Part shown: positions 1-7,032 of the stretch, piece after piece | How the letters are laid out: the number at the start of each line of letters is the position of its first letter | Position numbering within the stretch: the stretch's first letter is position 1 | Source of the DNA: Bacteroidia bacterium | GTDB taxonomy: Bacteria; Bacteroidota; Bacteroidia; Bacteroidales; UBA12481 | Direction: 5' to 3' | Assembly (NCBI GenBank): GCA_026391235.1 | Contig: JAPLDV010000463.1 | Span: 1 to 7,032 of the forward strand | DNA: 7,032 nt | Notes under the pieces: generated by a model | The model's database searches: none | Told to the model about the DNA's origin: nothing | What the model saw: the letters and a program-made list of their open reading frames with translations, nothing else | Made by a program: the position numbers and the translations under genes

Positions 1-951
1 ACCTGGTCGGTTAACCTCGTCTGGATCAATAGTACGCAGGTAATAGGCCGTTCATCCTATTATGTTCAAAAAATGATGGCTGAAAACCGGCCCGGCTATA
101 ATTTTAAAACAGAGATAACTCCACGTCCAGAAAAACCTCTTTTACTCAATGCCGACGGTTGTGTGGGAGTGGGAACCTGGCGTACGCAAACCGAGTACAA
201 GGATTTTAAAATTACTGCCTCCGATGGCAAAACAGAAAAACCCGCAACCGGGGATTGGGTGAAACAAAACGGCGAATGGACCATTTCGGATAACCTGGTG
301 GCCCAGACTTCTGATAAAACCATGACCAGCCTGATGTGGAACAAGCCGTTCACCGGAGCTTATACCTTTGAACTCAAAGCCCGTATTACAGGAGGAGATG
401 AAGGTTTCCTGATTTGCTTTGGTATGACGGACCAGAATAAGAAAGGCTATCTTTTCAATATCGGAGGATGGATGAATACCCTGACCGCTTTAGAAAAGGT
501 TTACAATGGAACCACTGCCGGCATTTTAAGCGAACAGATTCCGCATACCCTTGAAAAAGACAAGTGGTATGATATCAGGATTGTGGTAACTGCACAGGAT
601 GCCGCACTCTGGATTGACGGGGTCCTGAAAATCAAATACAAGCCTACCAGTCAATTACGCCAGTTTGCCATTGGCGGTTACGATGAAGCTGCCGGTGAAG
701 TTATCGTTAAAGTGGTCAATGCCGATGAAATCCCATGGAATTCATCCATCAAGATCATCAATAGTAGCCAGGTATCGTCATTTGGTGAAGTTATTACATT
801 GTCCGCCAAGTCTTTGGAAGACGAGAACTCCTTTGAAGAACCATTGAAAATATCGCCGGTAATAAAGGGATTCGATAAATTTTCAGCCGAATTCATCTAT
901 GAGTTCGAGCCCGCATCTTTTACCATCTTAAAAATCAAGGTTACCAAATAG
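1..951 (+). CDS. GH51-type alpha-L-arabinofuranosidase, C-terminal part (5' end outside window)
   Basis: The frame is open from base 1, so this is the last 316 residues of a longer gene; the catalytic barrel lies outside the window. Residues 1-26 (TWSVNLVW, then SSYYVQKMMAENR) match the end of the GH51 barrel. GVGTWRTQTEYKDFKIT follows at about residues 55-72. Residues from about 85 to 215 form a LamG/concanavalin-like sandwich (GEWTISDNLVAQ, FELKARITGGDEGF, DKWYDIRIVV, ALWIDGVL). The end returns to the GH51 C-terminal beta domain: VKVVN, LEDENSFEEP, then FEPASFTILKIKV. The family hydrolyses terminal alpha-L-arabinofuranosyl bonds in arabinan, arabinoxylan or arabinogalactan. In plant and Bacteroidota GH51 enzymes the sandwich is a known accessory region that may bind carbohydrate. 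No secretion signal can be judged because the N-terminus is missing. An internal ATG at 73 is only the first ATG in view, not the real start. A GH38 gene follows 262 bp downstream on the same strand. Confidence 0.85.
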   Translation, partial: TWSVNLVWINSTQVIGRSSYYVQKMMAENRPGYNFKTEITPRPEKPLLLNADGCVGVGTWRTQTEYKDFKITASDGKTEKPATGDWVKQNGEWTISDNLVAQTSDKTMTSLMWNKPFTGAYTFELKARITGGDEGFLICFGMTDQNKKGYLFNIGGWMNTLTALEKVYNGTTAGILSEQIPHTLEKDKWYDIRIVVTAQDAALWIDGVLKIKYKPTSQLRQFAIGGYDEAAGEVIVKVVNADEIPWNSSIKIINSSQVSSFGEVITLSAKSLEDENSFEEPLKISPVIKGFDKFSAEFIYEFEPASFTILKIKVTK

Positions 952-1213: not shown

Positions 1214-2020
1214 ATGAAAAAAATATCACACTCCATTATTTACTTTCTGATTCTGGTTTTGCTTGCCGTCCAAACTGCATCAGCTCAAACCGACACCAAA
1301 AAAGTATATCTGCCCGGATTTGATAAAGGGATCAGCGGCGTGGATTTCAATTACCGTTCACCACTGCCCCAGAATGAGGATGCCTATATCCTCCGGAATT
1401 CTTTCGCAAACCGGGAAATGACATGGAAAACGGCACCGCTAACCCAGTCAGGCCTGTCCGGAAAGGTCGCTTTCATTTTTATGGCGGCTATGTCAACCGA
1501 TAGCCGGGACCTTAAATATCAGCTGAAAGTCAATGATGGGGAGGTTTTCAATTTTACCAATAATCAGGATAAAGTCTGGTTAGTAAAAGGTTCCCTGGGG
1601 GGAGAATTATCTTTTTACCAGGCAAAAAGTATTTCCGGCGTGGAACTCAATGGATTTATGATCTTAACCATTCAGGCCAACCGGATAAAAACAAAAGAAC
1701 CGGTGGAATTAAAGGTTACCCTTTTACCGACCACTAAGAATTCCTGGATCATCATTTTCAAAAAGGCATTGCAAAACCTGACGACGATAACCAGCTCTCC
1801 GGTATTGGTAAGGGAAAATGGGGAACCGAATCAACAGGTGGTCATCAGTCAGATTCAGTTCAGGGAACCCGGACCGATAACCTTCAGTTCCGGAGGTAAG
1901 GTGCTATTTACCAGCCAAACCAAAATCGGGTTCAACCAATTCTATGTCCCCGTACCGGCTGTCAAATCAGCAAAGAAAGTAACCATCCTTGCAAGTAACC
2001 ATCCTTGCAAAATACGCTGA
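1214..2020 (+). CDS. 5' part of a frameshifted GH38 glycoside hydrolase: signal peptide and N-terminal accessory domain
   Basis: Translation from ATG 1214 gives 268 residues. Residues 1-24 are a clear signal peptide (MKK start, hydrophobic IIYFLILVLLAV core, TASA cleavage before Q25), so the product is exported. Residues 25 to about 255 form a beta-rich region of no family I can name (LPGFDKGISGVDFNYRSPLP near the start, LKYQLKVNDGEVF, VVISQIQFREPGPITF). It resembles the accessory region ahead of the catalytic domain in some Bacteroidota GH38 proteins. The last residues, SNHPCKIR, are an artefact of frame: after KKVTILA an exact 16-bp tandem duplication shifts the frame and TGA 2018-2020 ends it. 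Without one copy, the protein reads VTILAKYADGNSES and continues into the catalytic domain, giving 1128 residues in all. As written, this piece alone has no catalytic residues. It is either a broken gene, a phase variant, or a sequencing or assembly error. Confidence 0.8.
   Translation: MKKISHSIIYFLILVLLAVQTASAQTDTKKVYLPGFDKGISGVDFNYRSPLPQNEDAYILRNSFANREMTWKTAPLTQSGLSGKVAFIFMAAMSTDSRDLKYQLKVNDGEVFNFTNNQDKVWLVKGSLGGELSFYQAKSISGVELNGFMILTIQANRIKTKEPVELKVTLLPTTKNSWIIIFKKALQNLTTITSSPVLVRENGEPNQQVVISQIQFREPGPITFSSGGKVLFTSQTKIGFNQFYVPVPAVKSAKKVTILASNHPCKIR
1977..2010 (+). repeat. 16-bp tandem duplication causing the GH38 frameshift
   Basis: GTAACCATCCTTGCAA occurs at 1979-1994 and again, immediately adjacent and identical, at 1995-2010. 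The match extends two bases to the left (AA), giving a 34-base tract with period 16. Sixteen is 1 modulo 3, so one extra copy shifts the frame. Both copies encode VTILA, the first in the upstream frame and the second in the downstream frame. Deleting one copy therefore joins the two reading frames exactly, with no residue lost or added. Confidence 0.95.
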
Positions 2021-4616
2021 CGGAAACTCCGAAAGCCTCAGCACCACTGTAACTCCTGTAAAAAAGTGGGAAATATACCTGGTGCAGCATGCGCACACCG
2101 ATATCGGATATACCCGCCCCCAATCTGAAATTCTCGCTGAACATCTTCGCTATATCGATTATGCACTTGATTATTGCGACCAGACTGATAATCTGCCCGA
2201 TGATGCAAAATTCCGATGGACCTGCGAGTCTGCCTGGGTGGTGAGAGAATACTTGCGTACACGCCCTCAATCTCAGATCGACCGGTTTAAAAAGCGCATC
2301 GGTGAGGGACGGGTAGAGGTTACGGGTATGTATTTCAATATGGCCGAAATTGCTGATGAGAACATCATGTTTGATTTCCTTCAGCCTCTAAAGGAGATCA
2401 AAGATCAGGGGATCACGGTGAAAACAACCATGCAGAACGATGTGAATGGCGTTGCCTGGTGTTTGCCTGATTATTTTAAAAACACCAGTGTACGGTACCT
2501 GACAATGGGAATCAACGAAACACGTTCGATCCTGCCTTTTAATATCCCAACCTGTTTCTGGTGGGAGGCTCCATCGGGTTCACGATTGCTCGCTTTCCGG
2601 AGCGACCATTACATGACCGGTAATTTTTTCGGCCTGCCTGAAGCAACCTCTTTCGACCCCAATAAAATATTTGATTACATTAAAAAATTGGAAGATAATG
2701 CCTATCCGTTTGATCGCATTGCTGCTCAGTTCTCAGGATATTTCACCGACAATTCACCTCCGTCGACCGGTGCCTGCGAAATCATCAAAGCCTGGAATGA
2801 AAAATATGAATCACCGAAACTCCGGCTGGCAACTGCTTCAGAATTTTTCGAATATGTCGAAAAGAATTATTCAGCATCGCTGCCGGTTTACCGGAATGCC
2901 TGGCTCGACTGGTGGACAGACGGCTTCGGATCCACCTCGCGTGAAACGGCTAAAGTGCGCATGACCCAGAACATGAAGCAGGCAGATGAGGGTTTGTTTG
3001 CCATAGTTTCTATGCTGGGCGGCGGATTATCGGCCGATCTGAAGAGCAAAATCGAACATATCAGTGAAAATGCCCTGTTCTTCGATGAGCATACTGTTGG
3101 TGCAGATGAGAGCATCGATCGTCCCTATTCCGAAAATACAACGGAACAATGGCTGCAAAAAGGATCCTACGCCTGGGAAGCGCTGAAGAAAGTCACTTTG
3201 CTGAACGAGGATGCCCTGGGCCGTATTCAGCCATATCTTAAAAAGGCAAACTTCCCTGTGATATACGTAATGAATCCGATGGGTTGGGCCCGCTCGGGTG
3301 TGGTTGAGCTTTTTGTAGATAACCAGATCATTCCATCCGGAAAACAATTCAAAGTCATGGACCTGGCAACGAACAAGGAAATTCAGGTCCAGCTGGTCCG
3401 TAAACGGAGTGAGGGGGCCTATTGGGCTTTAAAAGTGGATGATATTCCTGCTTTGGGCTGGAAAGCCTTTAAGGTTGAAGTTGGCAATCTTGATGCAGCA
3501 CCCCCTGTTGGTCAGGGTGATGCTTTAAAAACCATTGAGAACCAATATTATAATTTAACTTTTGATGTTGTTACCGGTGCTGTCAGCAGTTTGTACGATA
3601 AGGAACTGAAACAGGAATTGCTCGATAAGGAGAATCCCTGGAAAATTGGTCAGCTGGTTCATGAAACCCTTACCGACCGGAATAATATGAAGGAGACTTC
3701 ACATACAACCGTTTCAAATGTGAAAATGGAAAACGGTGCAAACGGGGATTTATGGCAGAGTGTGAAATTCACCGCTGATCTTGAGGGTTTTGAAAAAGGA
3801 ACTCCCTCATCACCAAAGGGGCTGGAATGGGAGATCCGGTTGTATAACAAAACCAAATTGATCGAATTTCATTTTCTTGGCAGAAAAGAAATCCTCACAA
3901 ATCCTGAGGCACTTTATGTTACCTTTCCTTTTAATTTGCCCGGTTCAAGGATCGTTTTCGAAACAATCGGCGGTACACTTACCCAAGGCAAACAACTGCC
4001 GGGTTCCTCGTCCGACTGGAATGTTGCCCAGAATTTTGTATCGGTCAGAAGTCCGGAGGGACAAATTATTGTTGTAAGCGATGAAATACCGCTGTGGCAA
4101 TTCGGGGGTTTTAACCTGGGTAAATTCGAACGGTATCCCGCACAATGCAAACCCTGGCTCTATTCCTGGGTAATGAACAACTACTGGTTCACCAATTTCA
4201 GAGCTTATCAGGAAGGCGGATTTCACTGGACCTACCAGATCACAACATCAAAAGATACAACCAATGCAGCGGCATCCAAATTTGCATGGGGAGTGCGAAA
4301 TCCATTCCCGAGCAGGACATTCCCGGCTGGGAAAAATGAACTCACGTCTACCATTTTTCAAACGGTCAAAATCGCGGGATCGACAAACATAATGCTTGTG
4401 AATACCCGGCCATCATTCACCAAAACCGGCAGCATATTAATCCATCTCCGCGAATTGGATGGAACACCCGGAGCAATAACAATATCCTCCGCCATCGATG
4501 GACGGCCCATACGCCGAATGATTGAAGTCAATGTAATCGGAGAGGAGATCGGCCTGCCCTTACAATCAATTAACCTAAACCCGTTTGAGGTGAAATTTAT
4601 TCAGATAGAATATTAG
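1989..4616 (+). CDS. 3' part of the frameshifted GH38 glycoside hydrolase (alpha-mannosidase type): catalytic and C-terminal domains
   Basis: This frame opens after TAA 1980-1982; TTG 1989 is the first start-like codon and probably not a true start. Numbering is from TTG 1989. GH38 features are: HTDIGY with H36 and D38 (zinc ligands); QNDVNG with D151, the expected nucleophile and zinc ligand; NAWLDWWTDGFGST from about residue 303; and FFDEHTVGA with H368, the likely fourth zinc ligand. From about 420 a beta region begins (FPVIYVMNPMGW). At about 518-550 lies the GH38 C-terminal signature YYNLTFDVVTGAVSSLYDKE. The end is a beta domain closing with LNPFEVKFIQIEY. Retaining zinc-dependent GH38 enzymes cleave alpha-mannosides; exact linkage is not readable here. 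All catalytic residues are kept, so decay appears recent or the frameshift is not real. Made alone, this piece lacks the signal peptide. In the repaired protein the residues become H289, D291, D404 and H621. Confidence 0.88.
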   Translation: MQVTILAKYADGNSESLSTTVTPVKKWEIYLVQHAHTDIGYTRPQSEILAEHLRYIDYALDYCDQTDNLPDDAKFRWTCESAWVVREYLRTRPQSQIDRFKKRIGEGRVEVTGMYFNMAEIADENIMFDFLQPLKEIKDQGITVKTTMQNDVNGVAWCLPDYFKNTSVRYLTMGINETRSILPFNIPTCFWWEAPSGSRLLAFRSDHYMTGNFFGLPEATSFDPNKIFDYIKKLEDNAYPFDRIAAQFSGYFTDNSPPSTGACEIIKAWNEKYESPKLRLATASEFFEYVEKNYSASLPVYRNAWLDWWTDGFGSTSRETAKVRMTQNMKQADEGLFAIVSMLGGGLSADLKSKIEHISENALFFDEHTVGADESIDRPYSENTTEQWLQKGSYAWEALKKVTLLNEDALGRIQPYLKKANFPVIYVMNPMGWARSGVVELFVDNQIIPSGKQFKVMDLATNKEIQVQLVRKRSEGAYWALKVDDIPALGWKAFKVEVGNLDAAPPVGQGDALKTIENQYYNLTFDVVTGAVSSLYDKELKQELLDKENPWKIGQLVHETLTDRNNMKETSHTTVSNVKMENGANGDLWQSVKFTADLEGFEKGTPSSPKGLEWEIRLYNKTKLIEFHFLGRKEILTNPEALYVTFPFNLPGSRIVFETIGGTLTQGKQLPGSSSDWNVAQNFVSVRSPEGQIIVVSDEIPLWQFGGFNLGKFERYPAQCKPWLYSWVMNNYWFTNFRAYQEGGFHWTYQITTSKDTTNAAASKFAWGVRNPFPSRTFPAGKNELTSTIFQTVKIAGSTNIMLVNTRPSFTKTGSILIHLRELDGTPGAITISSAIDGRPIRRMIEVNVIGEEIGLPLQSINLNPFEVKFIQIEY

Positions 4617-4746: not shown

Positions 4747-5598
4747 TTACGCAGGCGACCTCTTCACAAACCTCCCCGTCTGGTAATCCTCAAATGCCTG
4801 ATAAAGCTCTTCCTTGGTGTTCATTACGATCGGTCCGCGCCAGGCGATCTCTTCATTAAGAGGCTTGCCCCCGATAAGCAGGAACCGGGCGCTGATCTTG
4901 CCGGCCCCAATAAATACCTGGTCTCCTGAGATAAGTTTTGCTAAAGTCCCGGCTCCGATGGGATGTGCCATTTGCTGGTCGAAGAAGGCTGATCCCTCAA
5001 ATACGTATGCGAAAACAGTGTGATCAGGATTCACATCGAAAGTTTGTTGAACTCCCGCCGGCAAAAATATGTCCATAAAAAGCGGCTTGACCACAATATC
5101 TTTAACCGGGCCGGTGAATTCACCAAAACTACCGGCGGCGAGACGGATGCGGATACCTTTCCAGTCGAATTCGGGGATAAGATGCGCGGGAACATCCTGG
5201 TACCGGGGCGACATCATTTTATGCGAAGCCGGGAGGTTTACCCACAACTGAAATCCACTCATTATCCCGTCGAATTTCCGGGGCATCTCCTGATGAAGAA
5301 TGCCGCTTCCGGCAGTCATCCATTGAATATCACCCGATTTGATCACCCCTTTGTTTTTCATGCTGTCCTCGTGTTCCACTTCTCCGGAAAGCATATAAGT
5401 AACCGTTTCGATACCCCGGTGCGGATGCCAGGGAAATCCTGCCATGTAATCCATAGGATCGTCCGATCCGAAATGGTCGAGCATCAGGAAAGGATCTAAC
5501 CATCCCTTGCGCGGATATCCAAACACCCGTTGCAACTTAACCCCGGCTCCTTCTAAAACCGGCGTGCTTCCAAGTGTGCTTTCAATTTTTCTTATCAT
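4747..5598 (-). CDS. Pirin family protein (bicupin metalloprotein)
   Basis: The product has 283 residues, a normal pirin length. The N-terminal cupin carries the metal site: H58 and H60 in WHPHRGIETVTYML, and H102 and E104 in GSGILHQEM. These match the four iron ligands of human pirin. FGYPRKGWLDPFLMLDHFG (about 26-44) and SGFQLWVNLP (about 114-123) are further family marks. The second cupin, from about 170, includes VFAYVFEGSAFF and GDQVFIGAG and, as usual, lacks the metal residues. No signal peptide is visible, so it is cytoplasmic. Some bacterial pirins have quercetin 2,3-dioxygenase activity and others act as redox or metabolic regulators; the sequence does not decide between these. It starts 12 bp after the stop of the PLP enzyme gene and is probably its operon partner. 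ATG 5598 is chosen because the homology begins there (MIRKIES). A nearby upstream ATG at 5606 is out of frame. Confidence 0.93.
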   Translation of the reverse strand: MIRKIESTLGSTPVLEGAGVKLQRVFGYPRKGWLDPFLMLDHFGSDDPMDYMAGFPWHPHRGIETVTYMLSGEVEHEDSMKNKGVIKSGDIQWMTAGSGILHQEMPRKFDGIMSGFQLWVNLPASHKMMSPRYQDVPAHLIPEFDWKGIRIRLAAGSFGEFTGPVKDIVVKPLFMDIFLPAGVQQTFDVNPDHTVFAYVFEGSAFFDQQMAHPIGAGTLAKLISGDQVFIGAGKISARFLLIGGKPLNEEIAWRGPIVMNTKEELYQAFEDYQTGRFVKRSPA

Positions 5599-5609
5599 GG
5601 TATCATGGT
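5593..5609 (-). repeat. 8-bp tandem duplication over the pirin start codon
   Basis: On the minus strand ACCATGAT occurs twice in a row (5609-5602 and 5601-5594), so ATG occurs at 5606 and again at 5598. The first ATG reads only Met-Ile-Pro and then TGA, and that TGA overlaps the pirin start as ATGA. The duplication therefore creates a tiny leader frame whose stop touches the real start. Only the 5598 ATG opens the pirin frame. Confidence 0.75.
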
Positions 5610-5610
5610 T

Positions 5611-6801
5611 TTATTCCTGCAGCGATTTCTTTATTAATTCGAATGTGCGTTCTATATCATTGTCAAGACCAACAGAAAAACGAATCAGTCCCTCCGATAA
5701 TCCCATTTCGTGCTGAATTTCATCAGGGATCTCCGAAGAAGTGCTCTTGCCGGAATTGCTGAACAGCGTCTTGAAATATCCAAGGCTTACGGCCAGGTAT
5801 CCAACCCCATTCATCTCCATCGCTTCCATAACCTTACTTGCCTTCTCAGCAGTCAAAAGGTCGATGGCAATCATCCCTCCAAAACCAAATCCGGGATTCA
5901 TCATCGATTTCAAAAGATCATGCCCCGGATGATCAGGCACTCCAGGATAATTGAATTTCAGCCCAATTGTTTTGAATTTATCCGCAAGATATTGAGCATT
6001 ATAACTATGCTGCTTCATACGGATATGAAGGGTATGAAGATTTTTCAGGATCGATGAGGATCGCATCGGATCGAGAACCGGTCCGAGCAGCATCGCAGTA
6101 CCATTATTGACATCAATCAGTGAACATATATATTCATTGGTTGAACAAATAGCTCCTGCAACACAATCATTCTTCCCGTTGATGAATTTAGTCATGCTGT
6201 ATACCGTGATATCCGCTCCCAGCCGGCAGGGCGACACGATCATCGGGGTAAATGTGTTGTCAACAATCAGTTTTGCCCCATGATCATGTGCAATTTTCGA
6301 CAACGATGGAATATCCGAGATCTGAAGCATCGGATTAGTCATCGTTTCCGTGTAAATCACCTTGGTAGTCGGTCTGACCGCTTTTCTAACAGACTCAAGA
6401 TCAGTAATATTAACAAAGGTGACTTCGATATTAAATCTTTTGATCCAGTTGCTCAGGAAAGCGAACGTTCCGCCATAGGAGGTTATGCTCGACACAATAT
6501 GATCGCCTGAGGATAATCCATGTAATAGTGCGCAGGTTATGGCACTCATTCCGGAAGATGTCACCCAGGCAGCCTCTGTCCCCTCCATGGCGGCTAAAGC
6601 GTCGGATAGATATTTATTGCTTGGATTCCAATGCCGGGAATATAGGAAACACCCCTGGGTTTCTCCATGAAAGGTATCTGCCATCGTTTTGGCCTGCATA
6701 AAAGTAAACGTGGCACTGTCGGTGATCGATGGGTTAACATCTCCATACTCACCAAATTGTAAGAGATCCTGAATTTTAGAGGCCGGATCGAAAGATTTCA
6801 T
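5611..6801 (-). CDS. Cys/Met metabolism PLP-dependent enzyme, similar to plant-type methionine gamma-lyase
   Basis: At 396 residues it has the length of the cystathionine gamma-synthase/methionine gamma-lyase family (fold type I, normally a tetramer). Visible active-site residues are Y54 and R56 in YSRHWNPS (phosphate contact from the neighbouring subunit), Y109 in SYGGTF (stacks on PLP), D181 in VDNTF (PLP nitrogen) and K205 in SMTKF (Schiff-base lysine). Several stretches resemble plant methionine gamma-lyase: GEYGDVNPSI, ALEGTEAAW-like AMEGTEAAW, YPGVPDHPGHDLLKSM, FGFGGMIAID and AVSLGYFKTLFSNSGKSTSS. The expected reaction is breakdown of methionine or a related sulfur amino acid to a 2-oxo acid, ammonia and a thiol. 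Cystathionine- or homoserine-derived substrates remain possible, because bacterial lyases carry a cysteine where this protein has glycine 111. It is cytoplasmic. It heads a probable two-gene operon with pirin. ATG 6801 fits the family N-terminus. Confidence 0.88.
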   Translation of the reverse strand: MKSFDPASKIQDLLQFGEYGDVNPSITDSATFTFMQAKTMADTFHGETQGCFLYSRHWNPSNKYLSDALAAMEGTEAAWVTSSGMSAITCALLHGLSSGDHIVSSITSYGGTFAFLSNWIKRFNIEVTFVNITDLESVRKAVRPTTKVIYTETMTNPMLQISDIPSLSKIAHDHGAKLIVDNTFTPMIVSPCRLGADITVYSMTKFINGKNDCVAGAICSTNEYICSLIDVNNGTAMLLGPVLDPMRSSSILKNLHTLHIRMKQHSYNAQYLADKFKTIGLKFNYPGVPDHPGHDLLKSMMNPGFGFGGMIAIDLLTAEKASKVMEAMEMNGVGYLAVSLGYFKTLFSNSGKSTSSEIPDEIQHEMGLSEGLIRFSVGLDNDIERTFELIKKSLQE

Positions 6802-6862
6802 GAAATAGCGTATTAAGGTTTAATTTAAAAAACTAAAATACGCAAAAAATATGCTAATTGGT

Positions 6863-7032
6863 TAATATGCTAATATGCTAATAAAGAAAGCATTTACTTG
6901 AGGTTAGCTTTATCTGTTGAGGCTCTTTTCATACATAGAAACCAAATAGTATCAAAATGTACATTCATTCAGTACGTTTGTTTTATATACTGCATTAAAT
7001 TAACACATTAGCATATTAGCACATTAGCATAT
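6863..7032. repeat. Period-8 AT-rich repeats in inverted orientation at the right edge
   Basis: On the left, TAATATGC is repeated (6863-6870, 6871-6878, then TAAT). On the right, ACATTAGC/ATATTAGC octamers run from 7005 to the window end. The sets are inverted relative to each other: 6863-6882 pairs with 7007-7026 with one mismatch, including 15 exact bases (6868-6882 with 7007-7021). The 124 bases between them have no open frame of note. TTAGCAnATTAGC repeats are familiar in Bacteroidota intergenic DNA. The array is cut by the window end, so its full length is unknown. It lies in the upstream region of the PLP enzyme gene. Confidence 0.6.

Follow-up and report, generated by a model that had tools for sequence, protein, structure and literature searches.

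What broke the reading frame of a glycosidase gene in an uncultured Bacteroidia bacterium (UBA12481), and can the gene still supply its enzyme? The DNA analyzed, here called the window, is one contig of 7,032 bp, and all statements on the allele rest on that single contig. We think it probable that the gene, which encodes an apparently secreted GH38 alpha-mannosidase, recently lost its function through a short tandem duplication. The identity of the enzyme and the otherwise intact state of its gene are well supported.

The 16-bp duplication and its surroundings

The window holds the following features:

1..951, + strand: end of an arabinofuranosidase-like protein, the upstream neighbour (PF06964 and PF06439), open to its stop and cut by the contig start
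1214..2020, + strand: N-terminal part of the split gene, 268 aa (ORF; aligns to the N-terminus of 15 intact relatives)
1977..1992, + strand: copy 1 of the 16-bp unit, AAGTAACCATCCTTGC (TRF and 16-mer search)
1993..2008, + strand: copy 2 of the unit, identical (TRF and 16-mer search)
2018..2020, + strand: TGA stop reached in the shifted frame (read from the sequence)
1989..4616, + strand: C-terminal part, 875 aa from TTG, with the GH38 catalytic and C-terminal domains (ORF)
4747..5598, − strand: pirin-family protein, a downstream neighbour, intact (PF02678, PF05726)
5611..6801, − strand: Cys/Met-metabolism PLP enzyme (methionine gamma-lyase-like), a downstream neighbour, intact (PF01053, 2.6e-94)

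TRF detected a perfect tandem repeat at 1977-2010 (period 16, 2.1 copies, 100% matches); bases 2009-2010 also match, so that the perfect tract is 34 bp long. The 16-mer occurred twice in the window at up to three mismatches, against a chance mean of 0.06, and none of 200 shuffles had two occurrences. The frame shifts by one base. The 268-aa ORF ends inside a beta domain just before the catalytic domain, with an eight-residue off-frame tail (SNHPCKIR) and then the TGA, the final base of which is 2020, where the initial annotation had placed the end of the feature. The two ORFs overlap at 1989-2020.

The N part was aligned with the 15 closest full-length relatives among the best 120 of 3105 matches (P0002-P0016; lengths of 1122-1132 aa, and 70-87% identity in the C part) and matched them as far as ...KKVTILA, and the C part continued from ..VTILAKYADG. 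The parts thus overlap by one translated repeat, which is translated once in each; the aligner scatters the eight off-frame tail residues of the N part elsewhere. The relatives carry one copy of the stretch corresponding to the 16-bp segment, and the window carries two in tandem. In this alignment no further stop or frameshift was seen in either part of the gene, which spans about 3.4 kb. TRF, the 16-mer search, the ORFs and the alignment confirmed the split by an exact 16-bp tandem duplication that had been described in the initial annotation, and its statement that neither half was broken elsewhere was borne out. The full length of 1128 residues given there agrees with that of the relatives.

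The gene end at 1-951 had both an arabinofuranosidase C-terminal match and a 3-keto-disaccharide hydrolase match. An arabinofuranosidase-like gene adjoins the GH38 gene in one of the five nearest loci (L001, 72% identity) and was not found in the stretches examined for L002-L005. The pirin gene was present in all five (L001-L005; cut by the contig end in L005). The gene of the PLP enzyme, whose top NCBIfam match was methionine gamma-lyase at a score under that model's cut-off, was present in four of the five, L005 being cut by its contig end. Bases differed between the window and L002 by about 18% in the GH38 gene and by 14% in the downstream gene pair, so the window probably represents a different species of the same group.

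Rfam and tRNA scans of the whole window gave no matches. No sigma-70-type promoter was found in 900-2200, and no TAnnTTTG box on the + strand of 901-1300. At the contig end, two runs of 8-bp units (6848-6883 and 6999-7032; AATATGCT / ATTAGCAC) face each other as an imperfect inverted repeat of 34 nt, 85% complementary and 116 nt apart; GCTAATATGCTAAT was found in none of the 79 related loci. An intergenic inverted repeat at 1006-1053 (CCCCTCTCCCG / CGGGAGAGGGG) has perfect arms of 11 nt and a 26-nt spacer, and its arm was found in just one of the 79 loci (L049). Over the pirin start codon lies an 8-bp direct repeat (5593-5609) that places an extra out-of-frame ATG just upstream; the counterpart in L002 is similar and imperfect.

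Identity of the enzyme and continuity of its relatives

The C part matched PF01074, the N-terminal catalytic domain of GH38, with 127 bits (curated cut-off 25), and the catalytic part modelled alone as a complete GH38 fold. Residues H36, D38, D151, D254, and H368 (numbering of the 875-aa ORF) were present and, apart from gaps, invariant in 65 aligned sequences. We take them to be the zinc ligands and catalytic Asp residues of GH38. The initial annotation had called every catalytic residue intact; the five residues stand, with putative roles, and only the HxHxD motif (H36/D38) was aligned to a solved enzyme, that of jack bean, in a weak stretch of 9.4 bits. A PDB sequence search with a 65-row profile retrieved jack bean alpha-mannosidase at 1.2e-7; a 17-row profile gave no match, and the single C part gave only chance-level matches (E of 0.19 or worse). 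Mannosylglycerate hydrolase, the sole NCBIfam match of the C part, was rejected (27 bits against a cut-off of 1138).

The 268-aa part comprises a start that looks by eye like a signal peptide, a beta-sandwich region and most of a second beta domain, which in our reading is Ig-like. A structure model of the relative P0002 (17 rows) showed strands from about residue 30 to 275, a region where pLDDT was mostly 70-90; its catalytic part was poor (mean pLDDT 53), and only the N-terminal beta region was used. The 875-aa part has no signal-peptide-like start of its own. The full gene would thus encode a GH38 alpha-mannosidase that is apparently secreted, as the initial annotation had it, secretion being read from the look of the start. 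Compared with the solved GH38 alpha-mannosidases (PF01074, PF07748; 5kbp of E. faecalis, 2wyh of S. pyogenes, and 6b9o of jack bean), identity to the entries listed was 11-16%. The enzyme of the window differs from these in having extra N-terminal beta domains, and its gene in having the frame broken upstream of the catalytic domain.

All 15 of the listed full-length relatives were continuous at the site, with no insertion there. In the five nearest loci (L001-L005), one ORF of 1134-1143 codons between stops spans both parts. A search with the 268-aa part matched only itself and P0122, a protein of 444 aa that is continuous across the site and on into the GH38 domain. Among the listed relatives, the searches turned up no second split allele of this kind. 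In the family of the L002 genome, 9 of 12 genomes had a match at E≤1e-100; the 10 copies listed contained no internal stops. Five of the 10 are those of L001-L005, and the remaining ones are 43-62% identical. The five nearest genomes (G001-G005) each had 4-15 GH38-like matches, some of them pieces of one gene. Each had one close orthologue, and the remaining matches were 20-38% identical; with these other GH38-like proteins at hand, loss of the gene could be tolerated.

In the wider set of 79 related loci, 78 were free of stops inside the GH38 match, which in some loci is cut at a contig end. The exception, L071, has its stop at an NN gap. A crude rule applied upstream of the catalytic match gave an in-frame Met with a hydrophobic start in 69 of the 79; six were cut by an edge, and four had neither (L066, L071, and the distant L077 and L078).

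In L066 (56% identity), the signal peptide and first part lie in another frame than the catalytic part (L066:2698-3000). The frame changes near a T6 tract, and the coverage of the contig is 3.4; this is apparently a different lesion, or an error. The 11-bp tandem repeat of L066 was rejected as the cause. Among the 79 loci there was thus one other frame break, of a different kind, and none was traced to a tandem duplication.

Probable recent loss of function or possible assembly error

The age of the break was bounded by the stops that the gene has not acquired. With zero stops, neutral divergence after the break can have reached about 0.021 per site at most (3393 sites; 4.2% of point changes give a stop, with transitions weighted two to one and indels ignored). 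The dS to L002 was 0.89 in the C part and 1.02 in the N part; if it is shared equally between the two lineages, the break would fall within roughly the last twentieth of the branch.

Substitutions on the window branch pointed the same way. With L001 as outgroup, the ratio of nonsynonymous to synonymous changes in the C part was 25:105 on the window branch against 50:70 on that of L002 (Fisher P 0.0002), a difference toward more constraint on the window. The counts were 37:91 against 36:78 with L003 (P 0.68) and 36:94 against 36:78 with L004 (P 0.57); L005 was left out as an outgroup. In the N part, nonsynonymous change was not raised on the window branch with any of the three (P 0.38, 1.0, and 0.82). 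The lack of any excess indicates that ordinary selection acted until very recently, or still acts, in which case the break is an artefact. By these sequence comparisons the break is young, or not real. The very recent mutation that the initial annotation had offered as one possibility was supported by the lack of a second lesion and of a nonsynonymous excess.

In the reading that we prefer, recent loss of function, the duplication would have been a single event, in which replication slipped or switched template at a microhomology of 2 bp (AA). The 268-aa product would be exported and would have no active site. The intact catalytic part would have neither an export signal nor a good start codon; within 1900-2150, its frame has a stop at 1980, followed by just two start codons, TTG 1989 and GTG 2082. 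With both parts so disabled, the enzyme would be effectively off. Slippage might restore the frame at a low rate, as in other short tandem duplications, without this being a selected switch.

The chief alternative is that assembly or consensus calling introduced the extra copy, for example where two contigs were joined or between strain variants, and that the gene of the organism is intact. We hold this to be rather unlikely, and it has the same data behind it: an unbroken frame without relaxed selection is equally expected from an error. The window is a lone short contig, the split is absent from every other listed protein, and frame breaks in such contigs can be technical, as the one in L071 at NN illustrates. 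With a single contig seen, the duplication may exist in no cell. The best other identity in the protein collection was 87%, members inside the 90% clusters not being among those listed, so there was no independent assembly of this population to compare. Against an error, short-read assemblers tend to collapse the copies of repeats much shorter than a read and not to add any. Short tandem duplications are also documented inactivating events in another bacterium (PMC4022640). Recent mutation and assembly error, both named in the initial annotation, are the likely options, and from the contig alone the two are not separable.

Switching, restart, and decay as unlikely alternatives

Reversible switching, also proposed in the initial annotation, would mean that copies in the 16-bp tract come and go at a rate sufficient to turn the enzyme on and off, and that the tract has been retained for this purpose. 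This seems quite improbable to us. A perfect tandem tract of 34 bp within an ORF, shifting its frame, can slip. For genes of the pneumococcal capsule (type 3 locus, cap8E, and tts), phase variation is reported to result from duplications within them (Waite et al., 2001, 2003, cited in PMC4022640), and these resemble the present case in that a short, spontaneous duplication inside the ORF turns the gene off. They differ in that one contig was seen here, with no second state observed, and in that the organism and the enzyme are unrelated. For an insertion of 9 bp, the same source quotes an expected reversion frequency no higher than about 1e-5. From these duplications and the quoted frequency the tract is revertible in principle, and reversibility in that sense would be ordinary for a two-copy 16-bp tract.

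The evolved switch itself was not supported. The unit was not conserved in L001-L005, and the tract was neither conserved nor variable in relatives; none of the 15 continuous relatives shows a second state, and P0122, the one other match of the 268-aa part, runs through the site. In contingency loci with simple-sequence repeats, as tabulated in a review (PMC4235727), the copy number of a coding repeat likewise sets the frame. Such loci have multiple units and switch reproducibly; here there are two 16-bp units, absent from the relatives seen. High switching rates in the review's table go with more units, and the table includes no 16-bp units.

The density of short tandem arrays bears on both this reading and a related one. 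Short exact arrays (period 6-60, at least 17 bp) numbered 4 in the 7,032 bp of the window and 73 in the 916,544 bp of the 79 related loci, and were denser in the window than in any of these loci. The Poisson P was 0.003 for the four arrays and 0.02 for the three left without the 16-bp repeat, in a post hoc comparison. Three of the four are noncoding or sit at the start of a gene; the array at the start of the pirin gene has an imperfect counterpart in L002. We read this density as a weak hint of a slippage-prone genome. It would mark such a genome if two-copy duplications of about 16 bp arose and collapsed in this lineage at a rate high enough to turn secreted glycosidases on and off as an unplanned switch, an idea that we consider very unlikely.

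Exact tandem repeats with a period of 10-60 gave 26 rows in the 916,544 bp of related loci. Twenty of these were classified against stop-free frames of at least 100 codons, and seven of the 20 overlapped none. The six left out were four overlapping arrays, a poly-C run and an array at a contig end; L059, L063, and L066 were inspected closely. A 12-base piece of the 16-bp unit (up to one mismatch, either strand) was present in 5 of the 79 loci. A limited literature search on a switch by tandem duplication found no 'alpha-mannosidase' paper, and we make no claim that it is unreported.

The split gene might still make the enzyme, by +1 ribosomal frameshifting or by a restart at TTG 1989 or GTG 2082, perhaps as two proteins. 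The overlap of the ORFs at 1989-2020 would in principle permit a restart near the stop, and the catalytic part alone is predicted to form a complete fold. Inspection of CGC-TGA-C by eye revealed no slippery +1 motif, a restarted C part would have no signal-peptide-like start, and no listed relative is split at the site; we find continued production highly improbable. That the gene is an old pseudogene in decay is scarcely credible, since beyond the frameshift there is no second lesion and nonsynonymous change is raised in neither part.

Recent loss of function is thus the reading that we retain. If the duplication is real, it would be a further case of a loss-of-function allele caught while fresh in a wild population; the enzyme affected degrades polysaccharides, and its relatives are unbroken. 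If both states occurred together, phase variation by tandem duplication would extend to an environmental glycosidase.
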